Source of the DNA: Hyphomonas jannaschiana VP2
GTDB lineage: Bacteria; Pseudomonadota; Alphaproteobacteria; Caulobacterales; Hyphomonadaceae
DNA length: 64,000 nt
Assembly: GCF_000685215.1 (NCBI RefSeq)
Contig: NZ_ARYJ01000002.1
Span: forward strand, 62,001-126,000
Direction of reading: 5' to 3'
The notes below the pieces were generated by a model. It was given only the letters and a program-made list of their open reading frames with translations, searched no databases and was not told where the DNA came from. Below are positions 4,041-54,482 of the stretch, piece after piece. Every line of letters starts with the position of its first letter. Position 1 is the stretch's first letter. Both the position numbers and the translations under genes were made by a program.

Positions 4041-4410
4041 GATTGTCTCCTTCGTGCTCATTTCTTGCTCCATCAATCCCTGGGAACTCTTCCGGTTCCT
4101 GTGCCTCTTCATGAACTATGGGATAGGCGCGGTTTGAGGCCGAAATGTGCAGCCACCGGGGCGAATGAGGCGGTGCCAAGGAATTTGGATGAATTCTGAC
4201 GGGCGGAGGGAAAGCCTAAACATAACAGTGTTTTGGCTATGGGAGAGCGACCCTTGTCTCGCGCATCAGGGGAAATTTCCGCTCAAATGTGGCACCTCCG
4301 GGGCAAGAGGTGGCCTGTCACAAGGCCAGAAAGGCGTGCCTCGTGCATCCGGAGTGGAGCACCTGCTTGCATCCGGGCGGACTTCCCATTAGTGACGGGT
4401 TTCCTCATGG
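4041..4410. other. intergenic, no gene seen
   Basis: 370 bases between the OmpA-like gene and tRNA-Thr. Short open frames here show no family motif, codon pattern or ribosome site. The tRNA promoter should lie just upstream of 4411 but no clear -35/-10 pair could be assigned. Confidence 0.5.
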
Positions 4411-4486
4411 GCCGGCTTAGCTCAGCTGGTAGAGCATCTGATTTGTAATCAGAGGGTCGCGGGTTCGAGTCCTGCAGCCGGCACCA
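4411..4486 (+). tRNA. tRNA-Thr (anticodon TGT), CCA encoded
   Basis: A complete cloverleaf: acceptor GCCGGCT pairs with AGCCGGC, D arm GCTC/GAGC, anticodon stem TCTGA/TCAGA with loop TTTGTAA, T arm GCGGG/CCTGC with TTCGAGT, then discriminator A and encoded CCA. The anticodon is TGT (threonine). The next sequence on the 3' side is the dead C-terminal end of a tyrosine integrase, the usual arrangement at a tRNA used as an attachment site. Confidence 0.97.
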
Positions 4487-4510
4487 TAGGAAACAAGGGC
4501 TTAGACCTGA

Positions 4511-4702
4511 TCACACGTGAAAGTTGAGATCTAACTGGCGCGCAATTGGCGCGCACCCGAGAAAAAGCAAGCAGATCGCCTCTGCCGCCACGGTCCGATA
4601 TGCAGGATCAAAAGGCATACTGACCTTTGTGGTCGAGTAGGCCGGTGCGTTTTGACCAAGTTGCGCGGTGACTTTCTGCGCCGGAGCGCTTTGAGTAGCA
4701 TT
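4511..4702 (-). pseudogene. relic of tyrosine integrase C-terminus
   Basis: Read on the minus strand, this stretch encodes about 63 residues that align with the end of the intact integrase at 12118-13245: SAPAQKVTAQLGQNAPAYST and MPFDPAYR match SVPAWEVAAQLGHKAPDYST and APFDPAY, and both continue with ARQLD before a stop. The catalytic His (GHK becomes GQN) and the catalytic Tyr (EIYA becomes KVSM) are both lost. A stop lies just upstream and nothing of the N-terminal 310 residues is visible. The relic points into the 3' end of tRNA-Thr, the normal orientation for an integrase beside its attachment tRNA. Confidence 0.8.
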
Positions 4703-4863
4703 TCATTGGCTCAAGCTTTGAAATTTGGCGTCTGATTTTAGAGAGATCCGAAGACAAAGAACCGACTGACCTGATGGCGTGGTCTGGCCATCTTTCGCCG
4801 GAAAATCCCTATGCCTGTCCCAACCTAAAATAGGTGCGACAATTTCGACAACGCGCATTGCGA

Positions 4864-4878
4864 ATGAGAATGACTTGC
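4864..4878 (+). promoter_or_regulatory. candidate iron-responsive operator upstream of TonB receptor
   Basis: The 15-mer ATGAGAATGACTTGC resembles half of a Fur box (GAGAATGA core) and lies 45 bases before the receptor start. The identical 15-mer is present, in the gene-proximal orientation, upstream of the second siderophore receptor (54512-54526). Sharing by two iron-receptor promoters suggests a Fur-family site. Confidence 0.5.
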
Positions 4879-4923
4879 ACTATCAGGCGGTGACTAATGA
4901 TTTGGTCATGCGGGAAAGCGGTC

Positions 4924-7164
4924 ATGAGAAGAGTTTTGTTTGCGGGTGTGTGTTCAGCAGCCATGTTGTCAGGGGGCGCCATGGCCCAGGCGCCTCAGGA
5001 GGATGCAGAACGGGTTGAAGAGACAGTTGTCGTTGTCGCGACGGGACTGTCGAGCGCGACCTCCACGACAAAGACGGATTCCCCGATCATTGAGTCGCCG
5101 CAAAGCATCTCGGTGATCAGCCGCGAGGAAATCGATCTCCGCGCCGTCAGCACGATCGCCGACGCACTCTCCTACTCCGCGGGTGTTCAGGCCGAGCCCT
5201 CGGGCATCGACAGCCGGACCGATGAAATTTCGGTCCGTGGATTCGGGGCGGGGGGGTTCTCTTCAAACAACAATTTCGTCGACGGGCTTCGCCTGCCGGC
5301 CGGCGGCCAGTGGACGCGCTTTGGCTTTGACCCGTACGGTTTGCAGCAGATCGAAGTGTTGAAAGGCCCGTCGTCTGTACTGTACGGTCAGGCGGCACCG
5401 GGCGGCATTGTCAACATCGTCTCGAAGCGTCCGACCGAAGCGAAGCAGTTTAACGCCCAGCTCCAGGCGACTGGCTATACCGATCTTGAAAATTGGACCT
5501 GGCAGGCAGCTGCAGACGGAAGCGGCGCGCTGACCGATGATGGCAAACTACTCGGCCGCCTGGTCGGACTTGTCCGCTATGGCGACACGGCAATCAACGA
5601 TGTGGAGAACGGACGCTATTATATCAGCCCAAGCCTTACATGGGCGCCTACGGACGATACGCGCTGGACTTTCCTTGGCCAGTATCAGCGCGACGAGGGC
5701 GGGGCGACCTTCCAATTCCTTCCGGCCGTGGGCACCTATGAGTCGACGAATGGCGGCTACATCGAGAATGATGCCAATATCGGCGAGCCGGACTGGAACG
5801 CATTCGATCGCGACCAGCTGCTGCTGGCTTCCTTCTTCGAGCATGATTTCTCCGACAAGCTGACCCTTCGGAACAATCTGCGCTACACGCATGTGGAAAC
5901 CCTGTACCGTGTGGGTGTCCTCGCTGGCGGTACAGTGACTGATTGCTCCGTGTTCACAGATCCGGCGGAGAATGCGGCCTGTATTCCGGGGCAGACGATC
6001 CGCCGGCGCGCTGTTCAGGGCGATGGGGAAAGCGATGGCTTCGCGATCGACACGCAGCTGCAGTACAAATTCACGACGGGCGAGCTGGAGCACACGCTTC
6101 TGGGCGGCATCGACTATTTCCACACCGAATGGGAGCATTTCCGCGATCTGGTCAGCCTGCCGGGCCAGCCGGGTGGTCAGGTCAACCCTCTGTGGGACAT
6201 CTTCAATCCTGTGCCGCGCGGGTCTGAGGCGTATTACGAAAACCTCAATCCACAGATATACGGATCGGCGGTCAGCAAGCAAACCGGTCTCTACATTCAG
6301 GATCAGGCGAGCCTCGGGAACTGGCGCTTTACGCTGGGCGGACGTCAGGACTGGTCTGAAGACGAAAGCAGCAACCTTCTGAATGATTACCAGTATGATA
6401 CGGATGCGGACAAGTTTACCTGGCGCGCCGGAGCGGTGTACCTGTTCGACAATGGCTTTGCGCCTTATGTTAGCTATTCGGAATCCTTCCTGCCGCAAGT
6501 GGTTGACCCGTCGTCCACATTAGGCGGGGTGTTGTTCGATCCGACGACGGGGCAACAGTTCGAAGCTGGTGTCCGGTACCAAGGGGGACGCAACATCTAT
6601 CTGACGCTCGGCGCCTATGACATCATTCAGGAAAACGTGTCCACTTCTGATCCCGGCGGCACCTTGTGCGGCACCCGGGTCTGCCAGATCCAGACCGGTG
6701 AGGCTGAAGTCAAAGGGATCGAATTTGAAGGCCGCGCGTCACTTGATACCGGCACGACCTTCATTCTGTCTGCGTCCACGCAGGATGCAGAAGTCACGAA
6801 GTCGAATGATGGCATTGAAGGCAACACGCTGGCGCAAGTGCCGGAGGTGCTCGCCTCTTTCTTCATCAACCAGGAAGTCGAAAACGGGACATTCAAAGGC
6901 ACCGGCTTTGGGGGTGGCATCCGCTATACGGGCGAAAGCTTTGGCGATTCCAATAACGTGTTCGAGATCGAAGATTATACCTTGTTCGATCTGTTCGTCC
7001 GTTATGACCTGGGGGCACTCGGACCAGCTGCCGAAGGTGTCGACATTTCACTGAATGTCCGGAACGTCGCCAATGAGCGCTATGTGACGACGTGTTCCTC
7101 AGTTGCATCCTGCTTCTACGGTCAGGGCCGCGTTGTGACTGCCCGACTCCAGTACCGGTGGTAG
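4924..7164 (+). CDS. TonB-dependent siderophore receptor
   Basis: 746 residues, outer-membrane receptor importing ferric siderophores with energy from TonB-ExbBD. Start is the ATG at 4924: it gives a signal peptide (MRRVLFAGVCSAAMLSGGAMAQA) and has GGGAAAG upstream. A plug domain (about 55-180) includes SPQSISVISREEI, SIDVRGF-like ISVRGFGAGG and IEVLKGPSSVLYGQAAPGG. The 22-strand barrel ends in the terminal aromatic YRW. The acidic run after the signal peptide precedes a TonB-box-like VEETVVVVA. First gene of an operon with the esterase, two small membrane proteins and PepSY protein; a Fur-like motif lies in its promoter. Confidence 0.93.
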   Translation: MRRVLFAGVCSAAMLSGGAMAQAPQEDAERVEETVVVVATGLSSATSTTKTDSPIIESPQSISVISREEIDLRAVSTIADALSYSAGVQAEPSGIDSRTDEISVRGFGAGGFSSNNNFVDGLRLPAGGQWTRFGFDPYGLQQIEVLKGPSSVLYGQAAPGGIVNIVSKRPTEAKQFNAQLQATGYTDLENWTWQAAADGSGALTDDGKLLGRLVGLVRYGDTAINDVENGRYYISPSLTWAPTDDTRWTFLGQYQRDEGGATFQFLPAVGTYESTNGGYIENDANIGEPDWNAFDRDQLLLASFFEHDFSDKLTLRNNLRYTHVETLYRVGVLAGGTVTDCSVFTDPAENAACIPGQTIRRRAVQGDGESDGFAIDTQLQYKFTTGELEHTLLGGIDYFHTEWEHFRDLVSLPGQPGGQVNPLWDIFNPVPRGSEAYYENLNPQIYGSAVSKQTGLYIQDQASLGNWRFTLGGRQDWSEDESSNLLNDYQYDTDADKFTWRAGAVYLFDNGFAPYVSYSESFLPQVVDPSSTLGGVLFDPTTGQQFEAGVRYQGGRNIYLTLGAYDIIQENVSTSDPGGTLCGTRVCQIQTGEAEVKGIEFEGRASLDTGTTFILSASTQDAEVTKSNDGIEGNTLAQVPEVLASFFINQEVENGTFKGTGFGGGIRYTGESFGDSNNVFEIEDYTLFDLFVRYDLGALGPAAEGVDISLNVRNVANERYVTTCSSVASCFYGQGRVVTARLQYRW

Positions 7165-7171
7165 GATATCC

Positions 7172-8041
7172 ATGATCGCCAGGTTCCTTTTGATCCTGAC
7201 CTGTTTTGTCTGCGGCGCGGCTCCGGCCCTGCCGCAGACGCCATCTGCTGCCTACGTCATGGAACGGACGGAAGTGCGGGACATTGTGTCGGCCACCGGC
7301 GGCGCTTACCGGATTTTCATCCAGACGCCGGAAGGGCCCGCTCCGGAAGCAGGGTATCCCGTTCTCTACATACTCGATGGCGAGGATAATTTCGCTGTCG
7401 CTGCCGCAACGGCGGATCGTTATGCCAAATATGCGCGTGACCATGGTTTCGAAGCCGGCCTGATCGTTGGGATTGGTTATGCGGAAGAAAGCCGGCGGTC
7501 TTTGGATTACACGCCGGAGACGGACCTGACCGCCGATGCCCGCGGCCGCCCGGTGGGCGGGGCAGGTGCCTTCCGGGAGTTCATCGTCTCGGACCTGCGC
7601 CCGGCGATTGAGGCGGATTTCCCGGTAGATACTTCCCGGCAAACCTTGTTCGGGCACAGCTATGGCGGCCTGTTCGTGCTGGACACTTTTTTCGCAGATC
7701 CCTCCTTGTTTCAGACCTATGTCGCTGCGAGTCCCTCGATCTGGTTCGGCACTCGGGCGGTGTTACGAAATGAGGCTGAACTGTCTGGCAAGCTTGTGGG
7801 CCTGTCCCCGCGCACATTGGTGCTGACTGCCGGCGATGGTGAGGATCATATTCCTCCCGCACTCGCTGGCAGTGGCGTCGGCAGTCTCCGGGCGGAAGCA
7901 GAGGCGCTCGCATCACGGCTTACCGGTATTGAGGGTCTGACGGTTCACCACCGCACACTCACCGGCGAAACCCATGGGTCTGCACTTTTGCCTGCACTGG
8001 GCAGCGCCGTTGCCTATACCTTTGCTGGAGGCCCGTTGTGA
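7172..8041 (+). CDS. periplasmic siderophore esterase (IroE/Fes-like alpha/beta hydrolase)
   Basis: 289 residues with a signal peptide (about 1-21). It has the esterase D/IroE fold: YPVLYILDGEDNF forms the oxyanion region, GHSYGG holds the nucleophile Ser, and GETHGS near the C-terminus holds the catalytic His. IroE-type enzymes cut ester bonds of trilactone siderophores in the periplasm, which fits its place 7 bases after a siderophore receptor gene. The exact siderophore is not readable. The last codons overlap the next gene. Confidence 0.85.
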   Translation: MIARFLLILTCFVCGAAPALPQTPSAAYVMERTEVRDIVSATGGAYRIFIQTPEGPAPEAGYPVLYILDGEDNFAVAAATADRYAKYARDHGFEAGLIVGIGYAEESRRSLDYTPETDLTADARGRPVGGAGAFREFIVSDLRPAIEADFPVDTSRQTLFGHSYGGLFVLDTFFADPSLFQTYVAASPSIWFGTRAVLRNEAELSGKLVGLSPRTLVLTAGDGEDHIPPALAGSGVGSLRAEAEALASRLTGIEGLTVHHRTLTGETHGSALLPALGSAVAYTFAGGPL

Positions 8042-8319
8042 CCCTGTTTCTCATATTGTCTGCGACGGTCCTTGGCCTGGCGGCCTCTGTTGCCTTCTAT
8101 CTCGGCGCCCCGAGCCAGAGGCTGCTGGAGCGGCGGCTGGCCCTGCCGGTTTCTCTCGGTGCAGGCGGTGTGCTCACAGTGATCTCTCTTGTGCTGTATT
8201 TGCAGGTCTGCGGACCGGCGGCATCAGTCTTTATCCTGATGACCGTGATTATGGGGGCGTGGTCAGGCTTGCCCTTCCTGATGACGGTGGTGAAACCGGG
8301 CCGGAGTCGACGGACATGA
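8038..8319 (+). CDS. small three-TM membrane protein of the iron operon
   Basis: 93 residues starting with GTG inside the GTGA overlap with the esterase stop. It has three hydrophobic segments (about 3-22, 34-53, 60-80) and a basic C-terminus (KPGRSRRT). I do not recognise a named family; comparable small membrane proteins sit next to PepSY proteins in TonB-receptor operons. Coupled by ATGA overlap to the next gene. Confidence 0.7.
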   Translation: MTLFLILSATVLGLAASVAFYLGAPSQRLLERRLALPVSLGAGGVLTVISLVLYLQVCGPAASVFILMTVIMGAWSGLPFLMTVVKPGRSRRT

Positions 8320-8627
8320 GTAACGACACGTTCCGCTATTCCAGCCGGAGCTGGTTCGGCAAGGCTTCGGCCGGGCTGATCCTGGGGTTTGCGCTGGCCC
8401 TGTCGCTGACCGGGCTGTTTGCCTGGCTATGGCCGGGCGGGCTGATGCACTCCTCGGGCAAGACACAGCTGAATATGTGGTTGATGTCGCCCATCTGGGC
8501 GTTGGTGCTCGGCTTCTGTTTTTTGTTCCGGACGGGCCTGCGGGCCTGGCTGTGGCTGGGCGGCGCGACGCTCCTTTCCTTTGCCGTATTGTTCGCCGTT
8601 AAAGCTTTTCTCGGGGGGGCAGCATGA
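8316..8627 (+). CDS. small membrane protein of the iron operon
   Basis: 103 residues, ATG at 8316 in the ATGA overlap with the upstream stop. Three predicted membrane spans (about 18-38, 52-70, 78-98); the segment LALSLTGLFAWLWPGG followed by a short loop and NMWLMSPIWALVLGFCFLFRTG is typical of the uncharacterised protein that precedes iron-uptake PepSY proteins. It ends in ATGA overlap with the PepSY gene, so all five genes are tightly coupled. Confidence 0.72.
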   Translation: MSNDTFRYSSRSWFGKASAGLILGFALALSLTGLFAWLWPGGLMHSSGKTQLNMWLMSPIWALVLGFCFLFRTGLRAWLWLGGATLLSFAVLFAVKAFLGGAA

Positions 8628-10246
8628 TCCGCGCCGACATTGTGAAGATGTACAAGGATGTTCACACTTGGGTGGGCATCGTTTCGGGGCTTGCCTTGTT
8701 CATCGCCTTCTATGCCGGGGCGATCACCATGTTCGAAGGGCAGCTGAAGCGCTGGGCGTCTCCTCCGCCTGCGCTCTCCACGCCGGTGCCGCTGGAGCGG
8801 ACGGCTGAACTCGTCAGCAAGACGATTGAGCAGCATCCCGACGCCGGCAATGGCTATACCATTCATGTGGCGACCAGTGCGGATCGTCCGGCCCGGATGA
8901 GCTGGACGGTTTGGCCCGAAGGCCGCTCACGCGGTGCGCCGCAGGAGACCTGGTACTCCGCGCTGGATACCAATGGGGATCTGGAAGTGAGCAAGGATAC
9001 GACCAGCCCGGTCGCGCAGTTTGTGGACGTGCTGCACCAGCAAGTGGGGCTGCCGTTCGATCATGAGATCGCAATGCCCATCATGGGTGCTATCTGCTTG
9101 CTCTACGCCATCGCGCTCATCTCAGGGGTCATCGTATTTCTACCGGGGTTCGCAAAGGACCTCTTCGCCCTGAGAATCGGGAAGAATCTCAAACGGATGT
9201 GGCTCGACGTGCACAATGTGCTCGGCATTTTCAGTCTGCCTTTCCATATCATCATGGCTCTGACCGCAATTGTCTTTGCCTTCCATGACCAGTTTTACGG
9301 CGTGCAGAACAAAGTCGCCTATGACGGCCAGCTCAGTGCCATGTTCGAGGCGAATGAACCTGAGCACCATGTCCATCCGGAGGAGAGGAAGGTGTTCCTT
9401 TCACCGGACTTGCTGATGGCACGCCTTGGCGAACAGGCCCCAGGATTTCAGGTGAAAGATATCCGTTACATCTTCCAACGTGACGGAACCATCGAGACAA
9501 TGGTGAATGGCGTAGATCCACGCTACGGTCATCGCGGGCCTGATTTCGGGATCGTGGCTGTGAATGCCTATACGGGGGATGTCATGTCCAAGGACTACCT
9601 GCCTGGACATCAGGAACCCATCATCGCAACCGTCACCGGCTTTTTCGCGCTCCACTTCGGGAATTTTGGCGGCGTGCCGGTGCGGTGGGGGTATTTCTTC
9701 CTCGGTCTTGCTGGCGCTTTCCTGTTTTACTCCGGTAACCTGCTCTGGATCGAGTCACGGCGGAAGAAGGCGCGGAAAACCCAGACGGATCCTGTGCAGC
9801 CTCTGAAGACGAAAGTGCTCGGTGCCCTGACGGTCGGGGTATCGTTGGGCTGTATCGCAGGCATATCCGTCACGATCGCCGCTGCAAAAGTGCTTCCCTC
9901 TTTCACGAGCGACATCGCGCCTTTGCACAGTTGGATCTACTATCTGACGTTTCTCGGGGCAGTTGGATGGGCCTTCCTTCGCGGTACTGCCAGGGGCGCT
10001 GTAGAGCTCCAGCTGTTTGCTGCAGCTTGCACGCTGGCCATCCCGTACGTGAGCCTGGCATCCTTTGTCATTCCCGGATTCGGGTGGACGTCGGAAGGCG
10101 GGGGCTTTCTGATTGAGCTAACGGCTCTGGCAGGTGCGGCAGGCTTGCTCGTCTCCGCCCATAGAACCCGGATCCGCGTCCGGAGATCGCCTTCGGATAG
10201 TATCTGGCATGTAAGCGGCATCAATTCGCGGGAAGTGATGACGTGA
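8624..10246 (+). CDS. PepSY-associated TM protein, putative ferric-siderophore reductase
   Basis: 540 residues. The N-terminal HTWVGIVSGLALFIAFYAG is the first span of the PepSY-TM family, followed by a periplasmic PepSY region (about 45-145), further spans (about 140-170 and 195-215, with HNVLGIFSLPFHIIMALT), a second PepSY region and four more C-terminal spans. Histidines at the membrane edges (HTW, HNVLG, FHI, LHF) are the heme or metal ligands seen in members believed to reduce ferric siderophores. Last gene of the receptor-esterase operon. Confidence 0.85.
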   Translation: MIRADIVKMYKDVHTWVGIVSGLALFIAFYAGAITMFEGQLKRWASPPPALSTPVPLERTAELVSKTIEQHPDAGNGYTIHVATSADRPARMSWTVWPEGRSRGAPQETWYSALDTNGDLEVSKDTTSPVAQFVDVLHQQVGLPFDHEIAMPIMGAICLLYAIALISGVIVFLPGFAKDLFALRIGKNLKRMWLDVHNVLGIFSLPFHIIMALTAIVFAFHDQFYGVQNKVAYDGQLSAMFEANEPEHHVHPEERKVFLSPDLLMARLGEQAPGFQVKDIRYIFQRDGTIETMVNGVDPRYGHRGPDFGIVAVNAYTGDVMSKDYLPGHQEPIIATVTGFFALHFGNFGGVPVRWGYFFLGLAGAFLFYSGNLLWIESRRKKARKTQTDPVQPLKTKVLGALTVGVSLGCIAGISVTIAAAKVLPSFTSDIAPLHSWIYYLTFLGAVGWAFLRGTARGAVELQLFAAACTLAIPYVSLASFVIPGFGWTSEGGGFLIELTALAGAAGLLVSAHRTRIRVRRSPSDSIWHVSGINSREVMT

Positions 10247-10338
10247 CGAAATTTCGTTAGCCGTGTCCAGCAGATTTGCGGCATGTTATCGGGCTGGCTG
10301 ATGACGGAAAAACTATCAATATTCAGGCCTTAAGTCGC

Positions 10339-10908
10339 TCAGGAAAGAGAGAAGTCACAACACCAGTTGCCAACCATCTCGGGCGCCAAATCCTTCTGAT
10401 CGAACTTGCAATGCGACCGTTCCGGGGAGCCGGAATGGGTCGCGTAGTACGTGCAATGACTACAAGTGCCAAACGGGCGTTTGTTTCGTATCTGCCTGAC
10501 ATTTTCCAGAAGCGAGTAGCAGAGTTTCTGCAATTGTTCCCGGTTCTTAGGCCCCAAATAATCTACTGCCGAAACCAGTGACTGCAGCGGGTCCTGATCC
10601 AGCATCTTCAAGCCAAGTGTGGACAATTTGAATATGTGGCTTCGAGCATCCTGCTTAGAGCGGATTTTTGTCAGAAGTCCTTTATCGTGGAGGCTTTTGA
10701 TGATCTGGGAAGCCGTTCCGCGTGACGTTCCGTGAAAATCCGCAAAGGCGGAGGAAGTGTTCGCTTCCTTTCCAGCACGGGAAAAGAATCGAAGACAGGT
10801 CCATTGAGCCGCTGTGAGCGGTGACGCGCTGCTATCACTTCGCAAGACCCGTCCGACATGGACGAGAAGTTCTGCTAGCTCCGCGCTGTCTGCGTCAATT
10901 TCGCTCAT
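10339..10908 (-). CDS. MarR-family regulator with Cys-rich C-terminal tail
   Basis: 189 residues, ATG at 10908. Residues about 10-140 form a MarR-type winged helix: PLTAAQWTCLRFFSRAG, the recognition helix region HGTSRGTASQIIKSLHDKG and the wing LTKIRSKQDARSHIFKLS. The tail (about 150-189) adds CSHC, then HCKF and NWCC, a possible metal site. It is divergent from the RpoH-like gene and 92 bases from the end of the iron operon, so iron or redox sensing is a reasonable but unproved guess. Imperfect inverted repeats lie in the divergent promoter. Confidence 0.78.
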   Translation of the reverse strand: MSEIDADSAELAELLVHVGRVLRSDSSASPLTAAQWTCLRFFSRAGKEANTSSAFADFHGTSRGTASQIIKSLHDKGLLTKIRSKQDARSHIFKLSTLGLKMLDQDPLQSLVSAVDYLGPKNREQLQKLCYSLLENVRQIRNKRPFGTCSHCTYYATHSGSPERSHCKFDQKDLAPEMVGNWCCDFSLS

Positions 10909-10917
10909 GCCTTTTAC

Positions 10918-10970
10918 TATCGAAACGAAATCAAATTGACAATATACCGCCACCAGATAGTTTCGAATCG
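10918..10970. promoter_or_regulatory. inverted repeat in the marR/rpoH-like divergent promoter
   Basis: TATCGAAAC (10918-10926) and GTTTCGA (10960-10966) form complementary arms about 33 bases apart, in an AT-rich spacer that has to hold both promoters. Candidate binding sites for the MarR protein; not proven. Confidence 0.3.
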
Positions 10971-10996
10971 ATATTATATGTACGGAACCCCAGACG

Positions 10997-11857
10997 ATGA
11001 TCAGCGACTCCAGAACTCGTCCGAGATCCAAGAGTAAACGGACCGCAAACTGGCTAAGCGCCGAAGAAGAAAAGACCCTTGCTCGCGCCTGGCAGAATGA
11101 GCGTGACCTGAAAGCGAGAAACAAACTCGTCGTTGCGTATACGCCTCTGGCTGAAGCTATGGCGGCGCGGCTCCTGCAGGATCGAAACGAGAGCCAGAGG
11201 TCTGACTTCATTCAGGAAGCCCATATCGGACTTCTGAAGGCGATTGACCGGTTTGACCCGGAAAGGGGATTTCGACTTTCAACCTATGCCGCCTGGTGGG
11301 TCAGAGCCGAAATACAAACCTTCAAACTCAACAACTGGTCGTTGGTGCGGCGAGGAACGTCGACACATGCCCGCAAGGCATTCTTCCAGCTCGGGCGTGT
11401 CGAAACGGAAATGACCCGATTAAAGGATTCCGACCCGACTGAGATCGACAAGACAATCGCATCGAACCTTGGAATTACGCGGCAAAGACTGAATGTCCTG
11501 CGAACGCAGTTTTCCGGGGCGGACAAATCACTGGATATCCAACCGGGAGAAGGACAAGGCGCCTTTGGATCTCCTTATCTCATTGATAAATCGGAATTGG
11601 TTGAGCTTCGGGTCAGCCAGAAAATTGATCAGGAACGAATAAAGAGCGTTCTATCCAGTTCTCTGGCCAAACTGCCCTGTCGGGAACGAAAGATCGTTCT
11701 GCTGAACGTGATGATCGAGCCCCGGCGTACGCTTGAGAGTCTGGCAGCCGACTATGGCGTTTCAAAAGAACGTATTCGACAATTGCGCAACAAGGGCCTG
11801 GACCGGCTGCGCCGGGAGTTCTCTTTACAAGGCATTCAAGCTCAGGACTTTTTCTGA
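10997..11857 (+). CDS. RpoH-like sigma-70 family factor
   Basis: 286 residues, close to the length of sigma-32. Region 2 is clear: YTPLAEAMAARLL, the core-binding FIQEAHIGLLKAIDRFDPERGFRLSTYAAWWVRAEIQ and the RpoH-type box NNWSLVRRGT. Region 4 ends with TLESLAADYGVSKERIRQLRNKGLDRLR, a helix-turn-helix for the -35 box. The gene is less GC-rich than its neighbours and lies beside an island. Probably an accessory heat-shock-type sigma factor rather than the housekeeping RpoH. Divergent from the MarR gene. Confidence 0.85.
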   Translation: MISDSRTRPRSKSKRTANWLSAEEEKTLARAWQNERDLKARNKLVVAYTPLAEAMAARLLQDRNESQRSDFIQEAHIGLLKAIDRFDPERGFRLSTYAAWWVRAEIQTFKLNNWSLVRRGTSTHARKAFFQLGRVETEMTRLKDSDPTEIDKTIASNLGITRQRLNVLRTQFSGADKSLDIQPGEGQGAFGSPYLIDKSELVELRVSQKIDQERIKSVLSSSLAKLPCRERKIVLLNVMIEPRRTLESLAADYGVSKERIRQLRNKGLDRLRREFSLQGIQAQDFF

Positions 11858-12117
11858 ACTCGTACGCCACAGAAACAGGATTGATGAAGAATGGCAGCGG
11901 ACGCTGCACATCATGTGCGCTCTGAACCTGACAATTCGTCCGGATTCAGATCTTACCTGCGAGCGGCATTCAAGTGTTGTATATCAGGGAATAATCACAT
12001 CAAGAGTAACTCATTCAAAAGTGCCGGAAAATATGATCAGTGTAAGGTATCCGTCGATGCTGAATTGTCTACGACGACATATGAAACTCCCCATCGTAGC
12101 GGGGACAATAAGACAGT
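11858..12117. other. intergenic between sigma factor and integrase
   Basis: 260 bases, clearly AT-richer than the surroundings. As the integrase 3' end points here, an attachment core would be expected, but no copy of the tRNA-Thr 3' end or other tRNA fragment was found by eye. No gene seen. Confidence 0.4.
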
Positions 12118-13245
12118 TTAGATTGATTCCAGCAGGAACTCTGAGACCGTATCGGCGTCCAATTGGCGCGCGACCTGGCACAAAAAGAGGTCGATCGCAT
12201 CTGTGGCCTTCGTCAGGTATGCAGGATCGAAGGGTGCATAGATTTCCGTTGTCGAGTAATCCGGTGCCTTGTGGCCGAGTTGTGCCGCAACCTCCCATGC
12301 TGGAACGCTTTGCATTCGGAGCCAGCGGGCGATCGTATGCCGAAAGGAATAAGTCTGGACGTTTCCGGACAAGCCTGCAGCTGCGCGGGTTGACGCCCAG
12401 CTTCGTTTTACGCTTTCGACGGCGGAGCCTTCATAACGGACAAGCGCTTCGGTTCCGGACGCCTGCTTGCGCACCTCAATATAGGCCGCGAGTTGTTCCG
12501 GGAGCTTCACAGTGGGGCGGTATTTCTTGGTCTGTTCGCGGCCTTTGGGGTTCAAGTCGATCAGCCTGTGCTCCAGATCAATCTGTGACAGGTGCAAGTC
12601 AAGAATGGCGCCAGTGCGGGCGGCAGTTCCTATCAAGAAGGCGATCAAGACACGGACATGTTGTTCCCTGGCAGCTTTGAGGAGTTTGGCAACCTCCTCT
12701 ATTTCGAGGGGCCGGCCTTTGGGTTCCGGCTTGGGGGGATTGACCAGCTGGACATAAGGCACTGAAGCGATGTCACCTCGTTTCCAGGCCCAGTTGAGCG
12801 CAGACTTCCCGATCATGAGCGCATTGCGGACCGAGCTTTGCGAAAGCTTCTTTTCAGCTGACAGCCAATTTCGGAATTTCAGCTGCTGATCCTGGTGGAG
12901 CGCTTGCTTGATTGTCGCTTCACCGTGAAATTCCAGCCAGTAGCGAAGGGTTCGGCGGATATCGACGGCGGATCGCAGGTGCTGGCCATGGTGTTCGTAG
13001 AACCGGGCGAAAACTTCGGCCAGCGTGGTCTCGTCCGGAGCTTCCTGTGTCTTGGATTGGTTGAGAACGAACCAGTCGTTCAGGATGGCCTTTGCTTCTT
13101 CAAAATCCGTTGTGCCGAGGCTAGCGCGTCCGGTCCTGCGAGTCTTGGGGTCGATCCACATCCGGTACCAGGCCGGGCTGCCTGAGCGCTGGCCGAGCCA
13201 ATATTTGCCGACCTGGTATCTGACTCTGGCTGCGTATCTTGCCAT
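12118..13245 (-). CDS. tyrosine-type site-specific integrase
   Basis: 375 residues. An N-terminal arm-binding region (1-60), a SAM-like core-binding domain (about 70-165) and the catalytic domain (about 175-345). Catalytic residues visible: Arg210 in TAARTGAI, Arg302 in YSFRHT, His325 in LGHK and Tyr336 in EIYAPF. It should integrate and excise the surrounding conjugative element. It is the outermost gene of the minus-strand ICE cluster and resembles the dead integrase fragment beside tRNA-Thr at 4.5 kb. Its 5' end overlaps the HTH gene by 166 bases. Confidence 0.93.
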   Translation of the reverse strand: MARYAARVRYQVGKYWLGQRSGSPAWYRMWIDPKTRRTGRASLGTTDFEEAKAILNDWFVLNQSKTQEAPDETTLAEVFARFYEHHGQHLRSAVDIRRTLRYWLEFHGEATIKQALHQDQQLKFRNWLSAEKKLSQSSVRNALMIGKSALNWAWKRGDIASVPYVQLVNPPKPEPKGRPLEIEEVAKLLKAAREQHVRVLIAFLIGTAARTGAILDLHLSQIDLEHRLIDLNPKGREQTKKYRPTVKLPEQLAAYIEVRKQASGTEALVRYEGSAVESVKRSWASTRAAAGLSGNVQTYSFRHTIARWLRMQSVPAWEVAAQLGHKAPDYSTTEIYAPFDPAYLTKATDAIDLFLCQVARQLDADTVSEFLLESI

Positions 13246-13475
13246 GTCGTCTCCTCAATTGCGTTCAACAGGTATTCGGCAAGCTGAAACCCGAAGAAGG
13301 AGAGCTTGCGCTTCGAAATCCGTACGTATGCGATCCGGCCTGCATCCCTCAGCCTTTTCAGGGTCTGTTTCGACATGCCGAGATGCCGGGCAGCCTCTTC
13401 TTCTGAGTAGCGCTGGTAGACCGGCAACCCGATTTCACTGGACATCTGCCGGACGGTTTCGTCGACTTCGTGCAT
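13080..13475 (-). CDS. helix-turn-helix protein, excisionase-like
   Basis: 131 residues from the ATG at 13475, which has AGGA 10 bases upstream; a TTG start at 13493 would add six residues. Residues about 20-60 (YSEEEAARHLGMSKQTLKRLRDAGRI, then VRISKRKLSFF) form a MerR/AlpA-like winged HTH of the excisionase type. The C-terminal 55 residues are encoded in the overlap with the integrase gene in another frame and look unstructured. Position directly upstream of the integrase suggests control of excision. Confidence 0.65.
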   Translation of the reverse strand: MHEVDETVRQMSSEIGLPVYQRYSEEEAARHLGMSKQTLKRLRDAGRIAYVRISKRKLSFFGFQLAEYLLNAIEETTWQDTQPESDTRSANIGSASAQAARPGTGCGSTPRLAGPDALASAQRILKKQRPS

Positions 13476-13493
13476 GGTCTTGCGTCCTGCCAA

Positions 13494-13733
13494 TCAGCCC
13501 TTCTGACTGGCCTTCAGGACCTTGCGGGCTTTCCGGAACCCGGCATCGCTTGCCAGAAATGCTTCGAGCATATGCGGGACCAGAACTGCGATGTTCACCT
13601 CCTCTCCATGCAGCTGGCTATGAACCTGGGAATAATCTTCCAGTTCAGCAACAAGTGAGGGGTCGATCTGGACGGTCAGTTTCTGTGGAGTGCGGTCCGG
13701 CAGCGGCCCGATCTTCAGGCTGGTCTTGCTCAT
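13494..13733 (-). CDS. DUF2274 domain protein
   Basis: 79 residues. The family sits right after trbI in alphaproteobacterial conjugation clusters, as here, with ATGA-type overlap. Visible pattern: LKIGPLPDRTPQKLTVQIDP followed by two helices (LVAELEDYSQVHSQ, VAVLVPHMLEAFLASDAGF-like), similar to a ribbon-helix-helix DNA-binding fold. The role is not established; a regulator or relaxosome accessory is likely. Confidence 0.8.
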   Translation of the reverse strand: MSKTSLKIGPLPDRTPQKLTVQIDPSLVAELEDYSQVHSQLHGEEVNIAVLVPHMLEAFLASDAGFRKARKVLKASQKG

Positions 13734-14989
13734 TGTGGGTGTCCTTCTTCATAGGGTTTCAGAACGATGTCCTTGTTCGCGAGCACGCCGAGCCGCCAGC
13801 CGGGCCGGATCGTGATCGTGGGCTGGACGCCGAGGTTTCGGCGCACGATTTCCTGACCGGCTTCATTGGCGCCGGTCTGCGCCGAGCGGCGGAGCGCCCG
13901 GGCAATATCGCTTTCATCGTCAGTGCCGAGTTCGGCGCCGACGCCAAGCAATGTCGAGAGGGCGACGCCCTGCAGCAACTTCCAGGAGTGATAGTCGACC
14001 TTGTCCTCGAGTCCGGCATAGCCGCGCGCGTCGACGCCGGCGAGATTGTCGATCCGGATGGAAGATCCGTCGGGCATGACGATCCGGCTCCAGACAAGGA
14101 GGGCCCGTGATTGGCCAAATGCGATGACACTGTCATAGCGTCCGATCAGGCGCGCGCCCTGCGGCACGAGCACGGTCTCGCCGGTCACCGTGTCATAGAC
14201 CGGGCTCGTCACCTGCGCGATAACCTGGCCCGGAAGATCGGAGTTCACACCCGTCAAAAGCGTCGCCGGGATGATCGTGCCTGCCATCAACTGGTAAGGC
14301 GAAACAGGCGTCTCGAGCCGGTGCGGATTGTAGATCGAGGGATCGGGCTCTTCGCCCAGGAAATCCAGTTTCCGCACCTGCCGGTTCGGATCCTCGCTGA
14401 GAGACGATCCGAAAGCTCCTTCGCGAGATGGCGCAAAGGCCGACAGGTCCGGAAAACTCACCGAACTCGGCGCAGATGATGCACCACTCCCAAAAACAGT
14501 CTTCGACCCTGCACCTGAGCCCACTTGGAAAAACACGCCGCTCCCGCGCGCTGCATCCGTAAGTGCTGCCTCGCGTGCCCTGAGTTTCTCTTCCAGCGCC
14601 GCCAGCTGCTCCTTCATCGAGTCCACCTCTGGCGCATCTTCCTCCGGCAGGCCCATACGCCCTTCACGCTGCGCCTTCAGGATCGGCGGGCCAAGGTCGC
14701 CAGGCAGTGGCGGCCCGAGCATATCTTCCTTCGGCGGCAGTTCGCCATAAGATTTCGGAAGCGTGGCCAATCCGTCCGCTTCCGGATTATGCCCGGTATT
14801 GTAAAGCTCGCGCGCAGGACCACCATCGTCGTCCTTCGGGGTCTGCAGGGCAAACGCCAGAGAGCCGAGGACGATCGCGCTGCCTGTGCCGACAAGCACC
14901 ATCAGGGCCCGCTTGGAGAACCGTTTGACGGGCCGCGGTCGCCCGCGGATTTCCAATGGCTGGGGAGAAGAGGAGGCCGCTTCCGTCAT
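13730..14989 (-). CDS. trbI: conjugal transfer protein TrbI (VirB10-like)
   Basis: 419 residues. A cytoplasmic N-terminus is followed by one TM span (about 28-48), a proline-rich/coiled-coil periplasmic linker (about 60-150) and the VirB10 barrel domain (about 230-410) with SPYQLMAGTIIPATLLTGVNSDLPGQ, VLVPQGARLIGRYDS and the closing TITIRPGWRLGVLANKDI. It bridges inner and outer membranes in the mating channel core with TrbG and TrbF. Overlaps trbG by 4 bases and the DUF2274 gene by 4. Confidence 0.95.
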   Translation of the reverse strand: MTEAASSSPQPLEIRGRPRPVKRFSKRALMVLVGTGSAIVLGSLAFALQTPKDDDGGPARELYNTGHNPEADGLATLPKSYGELPPKEDMLGPPLPGDLGPPILKAQREGRMGLPEEDAPEVDSMKEQLAALEEKLRAREAALTDAARGSGVFFQVGSGAGSKTVFGSGASSAPSSVSFPDLSAFAPSREGAFGSSLSEDPNRQVRKLDFLGEEPDPSIYNPHRLETPVSPYQLMAGTIIPATLLTGVNSDLPGQVIAQVTSPVYDTVTGETVLVPQGARLIGRYDSVIAFGQSRALLVWSRIVMPDGSSIRIDNLAGVDARGYAGLEDKVDYHSWKLLQGVALSTLLGVGAELGTDDESDIARALRRSAQTGANEAGQEIVRRNLGVQPTITIRPGWRLGVLANKDIVLKPYEEGHPQ

Positions 14990-16014
14990 GGTTTTGTGCT
15001 GCCAAGATCATTGCGCGCGATCTTCACGACGTCCTGGCGCTTTTCGCCGAGGCGCAGTTCAGCGCGGGCGAACAGGCGGTCGACGACATAATAGTCGCCC
15101 GACATGCGATAGTTCACGAGCTGGGACTTGCCGTCCCGGCCGATGACGAACAGGGCAGGGGCCTCGCCCTGGTCGAGCCGGGCCGGGAACTGGATGTAGA
15201 CTTTGCGGCCATCGTCGAAGACGCGATCCGGCCGCCAGTGCGGCGCATCGCCGTCGATGTCGTACCGGAACTTCAGCCGGTCGAGCTGCAGTCCGGCGGG
15301 CGAGGAGGGTGCCGATGCGCGCGCCGTGCCTGAACTCGCCACCCGCGTCACCAATTGCTGGTCGGCATAGCGCCAGGAGACGGCCGCCATATAGGTTTCC
15401 TCGAACGCGCGGAGTTCCAGGTGGTAGGCTCTCAAGCTCGTCGTGATGATGAGGTTCGTCTTGAGGCCGGCCTGGGTCGGCTTGATCAGGATATGGGCCT
15501 GGGCCTCTGCGCCGGTGCCGGAGACCGTGTCTCCCAGGACCCAGCGGACCGTGTCGCCGGCCGAGACCGAGACGAGTTCCTCGCCGGGCTGGAGGACGAT
15601 ATCGGTGACCTGTTCCGGTGCGCAATAGACCTGGTAAAGCGCACCCACGGTGTAGGGATAGACCTGGATCGCGTTCATGTAGTTGTCGAGCGAGGGTTCG
15701 ATCGCCGCCTGGCCGTTCGCCGCCTCGATGGCCTGATAGGGTTTGAGGGAAGGCGCTTCCGTCTTCGTCGGCATGGGTTTCAGCTGGCCGGGCACCGCGC
15801 CTGACACGATGGTCGGCGTGTAGGTGCGGTAGACGACCGGTTCTGGGGCTGGCTCGGCGTCCGCGGCCTCTGTCTCCTCCACATCCGGTGCGAGATAGAG
15901 GTCTTCGACATAGTCTGGCTCATCGAGGGTGATGTCGGGACCGCGAGACGCCGGCAACGTCTCGCAGGCGGCAAGCGCCGAGGAGGCAAGCAGGATCGGG
16001 GCAAGGCGTTTCAT
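14986..16014 (-). CDS. trbG: conjugal transfer protein TrbG (VirB9-like)
   Basis: 342 residues with an N-terminal lipoprotein-like signal (LLASSALAAC). The CagX/VirB9 fold occupies about 115-335: VYPYTVGALYQVYCAPEQVTDI, the strand set with GDTVRWVLGDT, LIITTSLRAYHLEL and, at the end, GDYYVVDRLFARAELRLGEKRQDVV. It forms the outer-membrane layer of the type IV secretion core with TrbI. Its start overlaps nothing; it follows trbF by 12 bases. Confidence 0.95.
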   Translation of the reverse strand: MKRLAPILLASSALAACETLPASRGPDITLDEPDYVEDLYLAPDVEETEAADAEPAPEPVVYRTYTPTIVSGAVPGQLKPMPTKTEAPSLKPYQAIEAANGQAAIEPSLDNYMNAIQVYPYTVGALYQVYCAPEQVTDIVLQPGEELVSVSAGDTVRWVLGDTVSGTGAEAQAHILIKPTQAGLKTNLIITTSLRAYHLELRAFEETYMAAVSWRYADQQLVTRVASSGTARASAPSSPAGLQLDRLKFRYDIDGDAPHWRPDRVFDDGRKVYIQFPARLDQGEAPALFVIGRDGKSQLVNYRMSGDYYVVDRLFARAELRLGEKRQDVVKIARNDLGSTKP

Positions 16015-16026
16015 GGGGTTATGCTC

Positions 16027-16710
16027 CTATTGATGGTCTTTTGACCAGTTGAGACCGTGGACGTAGAGGCCGAGAGGATTGGCCCGCAGGGCCTCTTCGG
16101 TGCGGGGCGGGTCGATGACGATCGAGAAGATGCCCGTGTGGGTCGACTGGCCGGTCTCGGCCCCGTTCCGGAAGGCGGTTTCGCGCCAGCGGACGGTGAA
16201 ACTGTCATCCGAGGCGCGCACGACGCTCGTCACATCCACCGAAACAGAGCGCCTGCCGACCTCCGTAAACGGATCATTGTCGCGGGCATAATCGTTGAGT
16301 GTCGCCGCGGCCCGGTCGGTTGCATAGGCATAGGCCTTCAGCCAGTTCTGGCGGACGACGACCGGATCAATTGAGATGGAGCGCGTATTCTTCACGAACT
16401 CGGCGAGGTGATAGGCGATCTGCGCATCGGTCGGCTCATAGCGTCCGTCGGCAGGGCCGACGGCGCGTACCGCGCCTTCGCCGGTCAGTTCGACGACATA
16501 GGGCGTCACGATCGATTGGGTCGAGCGCCAGACAAGGCCGCCTGCGAGCACGAAGGACAGGGCCAGACTTCCTAGCGCTGCGAACCGCCAATTAGCTGCC
16601 TGGACGCGGGCCGATCCGATCCGGTCGTCCCAGGCCTGCGCCGCACGCTGGTAAGGCGTCACGGGCGCCGTGGTCTCGCCATAGCGGGTAGAATTGCGCT
16701 TCCAGAGCAT
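16027..16710 (-). CDS. trbF: conjugal transfer protein TrbF (VirB8-like)
   Basis: 227 residues: a short cytoplasmic tail, one TM helix (about 42-62, ALGSLALSFVLAGGLVW) and a periplasmic VirB8 domain with NTF2-like fold (ARDNDPFTEVGRRSVSVDVTSVVRASDDSF). TrbF is an inner-membrane assembly factor of the mating channel. It lies 3 bases after trbL. Confidence 0.94.
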   Translation of the reverse strand: MLWKRNSTRYGETTAPVTPYQRAAQAWDDRIGSARVQAANWRFAALGSLALSFVLAGGLVWRSTQSIVTPYVVELTGEGAVRAVGPADGRYEPTDAQIAYHLAEFVKNTRSISIDPVVVRQNWLKAYAYATDRAAATLNDYARDNDPFTEVGRRSVSVDVTSVVRASDDSFTVRWRETAFRNGAETGQSTHTGIFSIVIDPPRTEEALRANPLGLYVHGLNWSKDHQ

Positions 16711-16713
16711 TGC

Positions 16714-18039
16714 TTAGTCCTCGTCTTTCCTGAGTTCGATCGATGTGCCGCCACCCGGCCGGTCACTGTCGCGCACGGCGGAGGCGGCCATCATGCCGGC
16801 GTCGCGCACATGCTGGTCCCGCTTGATGCGCCGGGCCCAGTCCGGGGACGAGTCCGGTCCGCGGGGAGGCGGGGGACCCGCAGGACCTGTGCCGCCGGTT
16901 GCGGCGAAAGCAGCTTGCGCGCCGGCCTGATGGCTATCCCGGGGATTGCCAAACATGCGCCCGGCGAGGTTCCGTGCACCGGACGCCGCCGCGCGGACGC
17001 CTGCGCCTGCGACTCCGCTCATGCCCGCCGCAGCAGCACCGGTGCCAGTCTTGCCAGAAGCGGCCGCATTCATCTGGTAGGCCGTGCGGGCGCCGCCCGT
17101 CATGGACGCCGCCGCACCGACGGCGCTGCGCGCCCCGCCGGCCGCGGCGCCAACGGCCGATTTCGCAAGACTGCCACCCGCGACGGTGCCTGCGGTCACA
17201 CCGGCGGCCGTGCCGATGGCAGCCCCGGCGCCCAGCTGCGGCGCACCGGAAACAAGCCCTGTCGCGATGCCAGGCCCGAACAGGCCAAGCGCCAGCAGCG
17301 AAAGAGATCCGAGGATAACGGAAGCAGCCTGTTCGAGTGTCACCTCGTCAGGCTGGAACGTGGAGGTGATGGAGGAAAAGATGGTCGAGCCGATGCCGAC
17401 AATGATCGCCAGCACCATGAGCTTGATGCCGGAGGCGATGACATTGCCGAGGACTTTCTCGGCGAGGAACGAGGTCTTGTTCCAGAGCGCGAACGGAATC
17501 AGCACGAAGCCGGCGAGCGTCGTCAGCTTGAACTCGATGATGGTGACGAAGAGCTGGATCGCGAGGAAGAAGAACGCCAGCAGCGTGATGATCCAGGCAA
17601 GGAACAGGACCGCGATGATCACGAAATTCTCGAAGAAGGCGATGGGGCCGGTGAGCTTCTCGATCTCGTCGAGCAGGGGCAGGGCGGCGTCGAACCCGGT
17701 CGCCGCGACGAAGCCCGGCTTCATGATGTCCTCGGCCGTGATCGTGCCGCCGGTCGCATTGAGGCCAAGCTGCGCAAAGCTCGTGAACACAATGTCCGAC
17801 AGGAGCGCGAAATTGCCGAGGATCAGCGCGAACGCGCCGACATAGAGCACTTTCTTGAGGAACCGGCCGACAATGTCCGTGTCCGGACCCATGGCCCAGA
17901 AAAGACCCGCCAGCGTGATGTCGATGGCAATGAGCGCGGAGGTCAGGAAGGCGACATCCGGCTGCAGCAGGCCGAACCCGCTGTCGATATAAGCGGAGAA
18001 GGTTGCGACAAATTGGTCGATGACGCCGAGGTCTTCCAT
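16714..18039 (-). CDS. trbL: conjugal transfer protein TrbL (VirB6-like)
   Basis: 441 residues, starting at the ATG at 18039 (MEDLGVIDQF), 5 bases after trbJ. About six to seven membrane spans in residues 30-290, including the conserved LAFFFLAIQLFVTIIEFKLT and FVLIPFALWNK. The remaining 150 residues are Ala/Gly-rich and low complexity, typical of TrbL, ending in a charged tail. It is the polytopic inner-membrane channel component. Confidence 0.93.
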   Translation of the reverse strand: MEDLGVIDQFVATFSAYIDSGFGLLQPDVAFLTSALIAIDITLAGLFWAMGPDTDIVGRFLKKVLYVGAFALILGNFALLSDIVFTSFAQLGLNATGGTITAEDIMKPGFVAATGFDAALPLLDEIEKLTGPIAFFENFVIIAVLFLAWIITLLAFFFLAIQLFVTIIEFKLTTLAGFVLIPFALWNKTSFLAEKVLGNVIASGIKLMVLAIIVGIGSTIFSSITSTFQPDEVTLEQAASVILGSLSLLALGLFGPGIATGLVSGAPQLGAGAAIGTAAGVTAGTVAGGSLAKSAVGAAAGGARSAVGAAASMTGGARTAYQMNAAASGKTGTGAAAAGMSGVAGAGVRAAASGARNLAGRMFGNPRDSHQAGAQAAFAATGGTGPAGPPPPRGPDSSPDWARRIKRDQHVRDAGMMAASAVRDSDRPGGGTSIELRKDED

Positions 18040-18043
18040 TGCT

Positions 18044-18769
18044 CTAGTCCCTCGAATAGGCGACGCCGTCGCCGACAAAGCGCTTGTGACGGATGCGGGC
18101 CTGCTCCTCGATGGCCGCCCGGCGGGACGCCTCAAGCGTCACCATTCGGTATTGCGCCGCCATCAGCTGCTGCATCTGCATCTGTTGCTCGACCGAGAGG
18201 GCGACGAGCTGGTTGCCGGCCTGCGCTACTGACAGGTTCCCGGTCGCCGACTGGCTTTCGCCGACAAGGTCGGTCAAGGTTTCTCGTGCGTCCGCAATCG
18301 AGGTCACAATCCCCGACTGGACCTGGATCGAGGCGCGGAATGCGTCGCGGCTGATCCGCCACTGGTCGGCGGCTTCGGCGACGATTTCCTCATTGGAGAG
18401 GTCTTCATAGGTGTCAGGGAAGGCGTCGCGGTACTGGCGCTCGGATTGTTCGACTTCGTAAGTGACCTCGCCCGCTTCCCGCATCAGCGTGTCGATCCGT
18501 TCCAGCAGGCGTTTCAGATGCTCGATCGAGGCATAATCGAGGCGCTTCAGATCCTCGGCCTGGTTCACCAGCATCTGTGCTTCATGCTGGAGCTGCTGGA
18601 TCTGGTTGTTGATCTGCTCGAGCGTATGCGTGGCCGTCAGGATGTTCTGGACGAGATTGGTCGGGTCGAGCACGACGTCGCCGACGCCGAGCAGGGCATT
18701 GGCTGGAGGTGCGGCCAGTCCAAATGTAGAAACAGACCCCAGCAGAAGGGCAATCATTCGGCGGCGCAT
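18044..18769 (-). CDS. trbJ: conjugal transfer protein TrbJ (VirB5-like)
   Basis: 241 residues with signal peptide (about 1-24). The mature part starts with LLGVGDVVLDPTNLVQNI, a TrbJ signature, followed by a long helical hairpin (LEQINNQIQQLQHEAQML, EDLKRLDYASIEHLKRLLERI). TrbJ is thought to be a minor pilus or adhesin-like component and entry-exclusion neighbour. No trbK is visible next to it. Overlaps the trbE stop by 16 bases. Confidence 0.92.
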   Translation of the reverse strand: MRRRMIALLLGSVSTFGLAAPPANALLGVGDVVLDPTNLVQNILTATHTLEQINNQIQQLQHEAQMLVNQAEDLKRLDYASIEHLKRLLERIDTLMREAGEVTYEVEQSERQYRDAFPDTYEDLSNEEIVAEAADQWRISRDAFRASIQVQSGIVTSIADARETLTDLVGESQSATGNLSVAQAGNQLVALSVEQQMQMQQLMAAQYRMVTLEASRRAAIEEQARIRHKRFVGDGVAYSRD

Positions 18770-21183: not shown

Positions 21184-21449
21184 GCGTAATACGCCTTCTG
21201 GCGGATGTGCCGGATCAGCACGTCTGTGAATTGCGGATCGCGCCTTGCAGCGAAGACGCAGATCCCCTGCGCGACGATCCAGAAAACGAGCCCCACGACC
21301 CAGAGCTGGAGGCCCAGCCCGAGCGCGCCTGCCAGCGTGCCGTTTGTAATGGTCGCAAGCCTTGGCGCACCGGCGAGCAGGATCGGCGCCGTCAGCGAAC
21401 GATGCACCGGCACGCTGTAGCCGGGCGGGAGGGGCGTTGCCTCAGCCAT
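21177..21449 (-). CDS. trbD: conjugal transfer protein TrbD (VirB3-like)
   Basis: 90 residues, ATG at 21449 overlapping the trbC stop by ATGA. Begins with GYSVPVHRSLTAPILLAGAPR, a VirB3/TrbD signature, then two closely spaced membrane spans (about 33-70) and the CVFAARRDPQFTDVL tail. Inner-membrane partner of TrbE. Confidence 0.93.
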   Translation of the reverse strand: MAEATPLPPGYSVPVHRSLTAPILLAGAPRLATITNGTLAGALGLGLQLWVVGLVFWIVAQGICVFAARRDPQFTDVLIRHIRQKAYYAC

Positions 21450-21760
21450 CAGAGCGTTGCCCCGCCGCCGAAGGAGAAGAAGGAGAGGAAGAATGAGGTC
21501 GCAGCAAAGGCGATCGACAGGCCGAACACGATCTGCAGGAGCTTCCGCATGCCGCCGCCGCTCTCGCCGAAGGCGAGGCCAAGGCCGGTCAGGATGATGA
21601 CGATGGTCGCAAGGATCTTGGCGACCGGGCCCTCGATGGATTCGAGGATCGATTGCAGCGGGGCTTCCCAGGGCATGCCGGACCCGGCCGCATGGGCGGG
21701 GAAGGCAATTGCCGCGACTAGCAAACTCAGGCTGATGCCCTTGATCATGTCTCTGTTCAT
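21449..21760 (-). CDS. trbC: conjugal transfer pilin TrbC (VirB2-like)
   Basis: 103 residues. A signal peptide (to about 24, ending AHAAGSG) is followed by a short polar part with MPWEAPLQSILESIEGPVAK and two hydrophobic helices (about 48-64 and 76-96) as in VirB2/TrbC pilins, which are often cyclised. ATGA overlap with trbB upstream and trbD downstream. Confidence 0.93.
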   Translation of the reverse strand: MNRDMIKGISLSLLVAAIAFPAHAAGSGMPWEAPLQSILESIEGPVAKILATIVIILTGLGLAFGESGGGMRKLLQIVFGLSIAFAATSFFLSFFSFGGGATL

Positions 21761-52275: not shown

Positions 52276-52289
52276 CTTGCGCCGGGTTC

Positions 52290-54467: not shown

Positions 54468-54482
54468 GGCTCTGTCCTTGTT

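Follow-up and report, generated by a model that had tools for sequence, protein, structure and literature searches.

The presence of a broken integrase gene end immediately beside a tRNA gene raises the question of whether the remnant is a fossil, as integrase remnants beside tRNAs are usually filed, or whether it remains a working part of the element that occupies the site. The case considered here lies in a 64,000-nucleotide stretch of the Hyphomonas jannaschiana VP2 genome (the window, G000:C2:62001-126000, where G000 denotes the source genome), in which a tRNA-Thr(TGT) gene called by ARAGORN, the integration target (4411-4486, plus strand), is followed on the minus strand at 4501-4702 by the frameshifted 3' end of an integrase gene. 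A sequence-only reading had attributed this end to an older island at the same locus and had suggested that the neighbouring iron operon may be left-over cargo. The best reading of the comparisons described below is that a composite conjugative island has kept its attL arm site in the remnant, which thus looks like more than a fossil, namely an attachment site that has been preserved; it is probably a truncated integrase 3' end which still serves, or until recently served, as attL of a 217-kb composite island at tRNA-Thr.

The remnant and the ends of the island

The remnant covers codons ~312-375 of its relative. Residues 312-363 of the intact 375-aa integrase encoded at 12118-13245 are matched by 4529-4693 on the minus strand, with 31/55 positions identical (58% identity over roughly the last 55 residues) and an E-value of 1e-11 in a search of the window; in the whole genome the same match, which contains one TGA, has an E-value of 3.9e-11. 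The frame of the remnant runs to a stop at 4511-4513, about 25 bases beyond the CCA of the tRNA, and a TTA at 4501-4503, one frameshift away from that frame, aligns with the stop codon of the intact copies. Both H325 and Y336, which are invariant in eight aligned intact relatives, have been lost, LGQ replacing LGH (His325 to Gln) and VSMPFDP replacing IYAPFDP (Tyr336 to Ser). The place, strand and parentage of the fragment and the loss of its active-site His and Tyr had been described correctly in the sequence-only reading, and the integrase similarity for which it had proposed a translated search is confirmed by the E-values given above. The remnant has no Pfam match and, with H325 and Y336 lost, does not qualify as a tyrosine recombinase (Phage_integrase); it is a pseudogene fragment and not an open gene. 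Chance similarity was considered and is ruled out, both because the next-best matches to the integrase in the window have E-values above 1 and because a nucleotide profile built from the ends of five intact integrase genes, run against 30 tRNA-Thr loci, found window positions 4519-4693 at an E-value of 4e-30. A minus-strand ORF at 4531-4701 was also ruled out as a gene, since its frame differs from that of the integrase match.

The 3' end of the tRNA-Thr gene recurs exactly at a distance of 217,075 bp: the attL core at 4442-4487 (plus strand) is identical at 46/46 positions to C2:283517-283562 (51/52 over 4442-4493), which is the attR core and lies outside the window. A 26-base piece of the core has its only other genome copy at C2:283536 when up to three mismatches are allowed, and no second tRNA core of 14 bases or more is found inside the window. 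The distant core copy is followed by a lysR gene, and in the relative G007 the tRNA-Thr and lysR genes are direct neighbours and constitute an empty site, the flanks of the source genome being syntenic on either side of the single G007 core (83.7% over 4.5 kb and 81.1% over 6.2 kb). The core repeat, the lysR gene and the synteny with the empty site together establish that the DNA from 4442 to the distant core copy, of which 4442-64000 falls within the window, is an insertion; its GC content is 0.584, compared to 0.612 and 0.646 in the flanks. The insertion thus shows both marks by which tRNA-integrated genomic islands are recognized, namely a directly repeated tRNA 3' end at either extremity and an empty site in a relative, and the remnant lies inside this 217-kb island, exactly at its left edge.

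The comparison of the tRNA-Thr locus across related genomes that the sequence-only reading had recommended also supports its claim that an element with a related integrase has used this target, since intact relatives of the integrase at 12118-13245 (88-89% identical to it) directly adjoin tRNA-Thr in G006 and G063. In G009, G013 and G017, tRNA-Thr is followed by a more distant lysR gene (52-53% identity), and the fragment is absent from these three empty-site genomes as well as from G007, as that claim requires. The attribution to an older island is not sustained. When a new element enters the att site on the tRNA side, the newest piece ends up adjoining the tRNA, so that a remnant beside the tRNA is not thereby older than what lies behind it; the exact core copy at C2:283517 and the unoccupied locus of G007 identify the remnant as the left end (attL) of the island now present. 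A separate observation concerns G019:C1, in which a tRNA-Thr att copy lies 50 kb off but the lysR gene is 2.4 Mb away, the right flank having seemingly moved.

A repeat pair shared by the remnant and attR

Within the remnant, at 4535-4555, lies a candidate arm-type site, CTGGCGCGCAATTGGCGCGCA, in which the 9-mer TGGCGCGCA is present in two direct copies 11 bp apart. The same pair, letter for letter, is found at C2:283392-283412, 105 bp before the attR core on its island side. When one mismatch is tolerated, only two places in the 3.64 Mb of the source genome carry the pair, the attL remnant and attR, and a search of 12 genomes yields 12 places in 7 genomes, all of which are tRNA-Thr att ends or 3' ends of genes of this integrase family; in G004, G006, G025 and G035 the pair also precedes the att copies. 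Short repeats common to attL and attR therefore lie on both sides of the core, which is the arrangement expected of arm-type sites (PMC11963761), and the pair is likely to be bound by the integrase, presumably through its N-terminal domain, as predicted from its placement. In all of the examples examined, related integrases beside tRNA-Thr, -Met, -Phe, -Val and -Ala carry at their 3' end a similar pair with the same 11-bp spacing, the letters of which differ by target. The recurrence of the pair also bears on the possibility that the remnant marks no island boundary, the distant tRNA-like copy being a coincidence and the remnant being unrelated to the 217 kb. That possibility is scarcely credible in view of the 46/46 identity of the core copies, the same arm pair at 105 bp and the lower GC content inside, and it is contradicted outright by the lysR synteny with the empty site of G007.

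If the pair serves as an attachment arm, it should matter how well it has survived in genes that are otherwise dead. When the stubs of G000, G004 and G025 are compared with the ends of four intact integrase genes, agreement is 19-20 of 20 within the pair and 61-76% in the rest of the stub; one-sided Fisher tests of the pair against the rest give values from 1.2e-4 to 0.041 in 12 comparisons, which are non-independent, use a 20-bp element that the intact genes conserve too, and involve stubs that may differ in their age of death. In the intact internal integrase of G000 the pair has decayed to 15-16/20 and the rest stands at 79-84%. This contrast between a living gene with a decayed pair and a dead one with a kept pair is limited to G000, because in both G004 and G025 the internal integrase has retained the pair. 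Among themselves the three stubs are less similar (76/145 to 98/147) than they are to intact genes, which indicates that they decayed separately.

The same type of remnant recurs beyond these genomes. A survey of 398 genomes of the order, supplemented by searches within the genus, found ten C-terminal stubs that adjoin tRNA genes: tRNA-Thr in G000, G004, G025 and G026, tRNA-Met in G012, G018 and G022, tRNA-Gly in G090 and G282, and tRNA-Val in G106. All ten break off between approximately residues 295 and 336, before the arms, and the pair is kept in 9/10 (at 8 or 9 of 9 letters), one copy having been deleted in G026; among random 150-bp island stretches, 8/9 matches were obtained in 19/5000. 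A weak eleventh stub beside tRNA-Thr in G003 (E-value 1e-4) is without the pair, and two additional C-terminal remnants are without a tRNA in the stretch fetched (G380:C33, and G027:C265, which is near a contig end). In the 398 genomes there is just one N-terminal remnant (G380:C93) that is not truncated by a contig end. Intact relatives end 21-30 bp from a tRNA-Thr, -Phe, -Met, -Ala or -Val gene at 10/14 loci; of the remaining 4/14, one copy is internal, one has no tRNA next to it and two are truncated by contig ends. No relatives of the integrase were found in viral contigs, and the matches in the plasmid collection were all below 60% identity.

These counts bear most directly on the alternative that the remnant is an inert scar, a functionless piece of an earlier element's integrase kept by chance beside the tRNA. 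Such a scar would be expected to have a broken frame and a lost active site, as the remnant does, and the losses in G026 (one arm copy) and G003 (the pair) demonstrate that stubs can simply decay; the scar is nevertheless unlikely, because the remnant sits exactly at the attL end of the present island, because the pair has been kept amid a decayed rest, with the reverse in the intact internal gene of G000, and because ten C-terminal remnants lie beside tRNAs compared to the single uncut N-terminal one. A second alternative involves no second element, only a local duplication of the internal integrase's 3' end and the insertion of cargo between the two copies. Such a duplication fits the presence of both a stub and an internal integrase in each of G000, G004 and G025, with matching arms. 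Outside the pair, however, the G004 stub agrees with the G063 integrase at 112/147 positions and with its own at 101/147, and the lowest agreement of the G025 stub is with its own integrase (90/147, compared to 106/147 for those of G006 and G063), which makes a duplication quite improbable.

If the remnant is a kept arm site, as the preferred reading holds, then the persistence of C-terminal but rarely N-terminal remnants would be explained, the exact ends would be fixed for a 217-kb conjugative island, found in a marine alphaproteobacterium, whose genes include ones for iron, metals and defence, and a sequence signature would be available for islands that can be mobilised without an integrase of their own. 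A broader proposal, which is offered tentatively and is open to considerable doubt, is that the tRNA-side integrase stubs of this order might be recurrent, selected attachment sites, movable by a related integrase located in the stack or in an incoming element. If this were true, cargo would travel by means of a dead integrase's recognisable end, and islands that are integrase-less yet mobilisable would be found by scanning for C-terminal stubs with an 11-bp-spaced repeat beside a tRNA.

Composition and likely history of the island

The integrase that could act on these ends lies inside the island, with no tRNA core beside it (12118-13245, minus strand). It matches PF00589 at 2.7e-14, and R210, R302, H303, H325 and Y336, which are invariant across eight sequences, are all in place, as is required of a member of the Phage_integrase family. 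The genome contains three Phage_integrase matches, and because the other two are on other contigs (C5 and C1), this integrase is the only one of its kind available for the island ends. Its start is overlapped by an HTH_17 protein (13080-13493, minus strand), a candidate excisionase by inferred role, which is followed by a conjugation module at 13494-31911 on the minus strand (DUF2274, TrbI, CagX/TrbG, VirB8, TrbL, TrbE, VirB3, the TraG coupling protein and DUF3363/relaxase). The relaxase call rests on DUF3363 (1e-110) in combination with a sub-threshold Relaxase match (7.8e-5). An integrase, conjugation machinery, a coupling protein and a relaxase are thus all present between the att sites, which is the gene content of an ICE, with excision as a circle and transfer being putative. 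Two genes between the coupling protein and the relaxase (25629-28941, an interval that also holds a small ORF at 25629-26123), encoding a DncV-like nucleotidyltransferase and a ThiF-type protein, look like a CBASS defence system carried inside the ICE.

The integrase and conjugation module is collinear in G004 (87.6% over 9.1 kb), G025 (87.9% over 11.1 kb) and G063 (85.6% over 7.2 kb), but its position relative to the tRNA differs: the integrase touches tRNA-Thr in G063 and G006, and a stub touches it instead in G000, G004 and G025. In the assemblies of G006, G025 and G063 the right ends of the islands fall on other contigs. The DNA between stub and integrase also differs, amounting to 7.4 kb in G000, ~26 kb in G004 and ~1.3 kb in G025, and in G004 and G025 the integrase stop codon is where the module homology begins. 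A profile match that begins 12 bases inside the core had hinted at a decayed core next to the internal integrase, but this was not upheld; no significant core trace was found beside the internal integrases of G000, G004 and G025 (shuffle P of 0.16, 0.83 and 0.21, respectively, for the local alignments). In the source genome the intervening segment, 4487-12117, resembles a CIME in that it has kept attL with the stub and that integration and transfer genes are absent from the ORFs searched, which comprise only a TonB receptor, an esterase, a PepSY protein, a MarR-family regulator (10339-11211, minus strand) and a sigma-70 (sigma-32-like) factor (10997-11857, plus strand), the last two being cargo with overlapping ORF calls. 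An attR of its own, as a CIME would have, is not among its features, there being no core before 12118 and only the copy at C2:283536 in the genome.

The iron-uptake module of this segment (4832-10207, plus strand), which encodes a TonB-dependent siderophore receptor, an esterase and a PepSY_TM protein, was acquired. A copy of the 5.4-kb module with 92.6% DNA identity occurs in G004 at C2:697-703 kb, at a locus with no tRNA, no integrase and no link to the tRNA-Thr att site, and the other 40/42 genomes of the genus contain no match at an E-value of 1e-30. The suggestion that the operon is left-over cargo is consequently right only in part: the operon, located between attL and the internal integrase, is cargo, but of the present composite island, and, with a copy at an unrelated locus and absence from the other 40/42 genomes, nothing ties it to the dead integrase. 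In G004 the first genes behind the stub (G004:C2:1180000-1183500, L052 4013-7432) also look by eye like a PepSY-type gene and a TonB receptor gene; they have no nucleotide similarity to those in the window.

A mechanism that would account for these features can be outlined as follows. In this family the integrase gene is oriented towards the tRNA, and the 9-bp direct repeats, one helical turn apart, lie within its last ~20 codons; these repeats are likely to be the arm sites to which the integrase binds. On this proposal, loss of the gene would leave behind the 40-80 codons containing the arm pair, because attL needs them. The intact integrase 7.4 kb further in would then move the island by acting on the stub attL and on attR, and excision of the island may still be occurring. 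The island would have grown by the joining of two or more elements, for which the simplest history is that two elements were stacked at one att site, in either order of arrival, and that the inner att site was subsequently lost, an event that would link the cargo with the conjugative portion. Against such a joining stands the absence of any second core trace beside the internal integrase in G000, G004 and G025. Sequences that flank attR in other genomes are nonetheless found in the middle of the island here, at G000:C2:130-149 kb (67986-86408 of the joined stretch): positions 67,986-74,829 are similar to the final 7 kb that lead up to attR in G004, and a 65-bp stretch at 86,344 is similar to attR-proximal sequence in G006, G025 and G035. 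The resemblance suggests that these may be lost inner right ends, and neither core nor pair is present at them.

Further cargo was noted on the far side of the conjugation module. A HipA-type kinase (HipA_C, Couple_hipA) at 38123-39430 is likely a toxin-antitoxin gene of the island, and metal cargo at 51136-61131 comprises a PepSY_TM protein, a TonB receptor, a pyridine nucleotide-disulphide oxidoreductase and a heavy-metal P-type ATPase.

Described systems and other tRNA-Thr loci

Accretion at one att site of ICEs, IMEs and CIMEs, the last of which are integrase-less with their att ends kept, is known (PMC5704250). The present island resembles tandem accretion in the stacking of elements at one tRNA end, in the combination of decayed att-keeping pieces with integrase pieces and in the formation of complex islands with transfer genes, but differs from it in that no att core separates the stub segment from the integrase segment, so that both segments would be mobilised jointly. 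The kept part of the att site is recognisable here because it lies within integrase coding sequence. In the ssrA islands of Dehalococcoides, the 3' end of the gene for the serine integrase DsiB likewise runs into attL, and tandem islands without an integration module have been proposed to be cis-mobilizable (PMC3146451); the recombinase here is a tyrosine recombinase and the target a tRNA, in contrast to DsiB and ssrA, and the available portion of the DsiB account describes no retained integrase ends as arm sites. A parallel for the arms themselves in an alphaproteobacterial tyrosine integrase is IntS of ICEMlSymR7A, the 283-bp attP of which has short arm motifs flanking the core on either side, shared between attL and attR once integration has taken place (PMC11963761), but that attP lies upstream of intS, whereas here attP is at the 3' end of the gene and overlaps its coding sequence. 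The conjugation genes are like those of trb-type (IncP-like) ICEs, with TrbE (NF010447) and TraG (NF010450) both above cut-off and TrbI, TrbL, CagX, VirB8, VirB3 and a relaxase-like protein next to the integrase; unlike in such ICEs, the target is the 3' end of tRNA-Thr and the integrase is not at the island edge. A limited literature search found no report of a C-terminal stub of a tyrosine integrase acting as a kept arm site.

Repeat pairs of other types were noticed at additional tRNA-Thr loci, and none of these types occurs at the empty-site loci. In G035, G036 and G019 (L006, L007 and L008), where elements of other types occupy tRNA-Thr, GGGGTTCCA is present twice, 12 bp apart; the neighbouring ORFs in G036 look metabolic and no relative of the present integrase is found there, and the three loci are possibly integrase-less islands of a third type. 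In G028 (L048), CGGTTTGCA is present twice, 11 bp apart, beside tRNA-Thr, and the pair is held by an ORF at 4295-4957 of the reversed stretch, integrase-like as judged by eye only, the 3' end of which reaches the tRNA; this ORF perhaps represents the same design in another integrase family.
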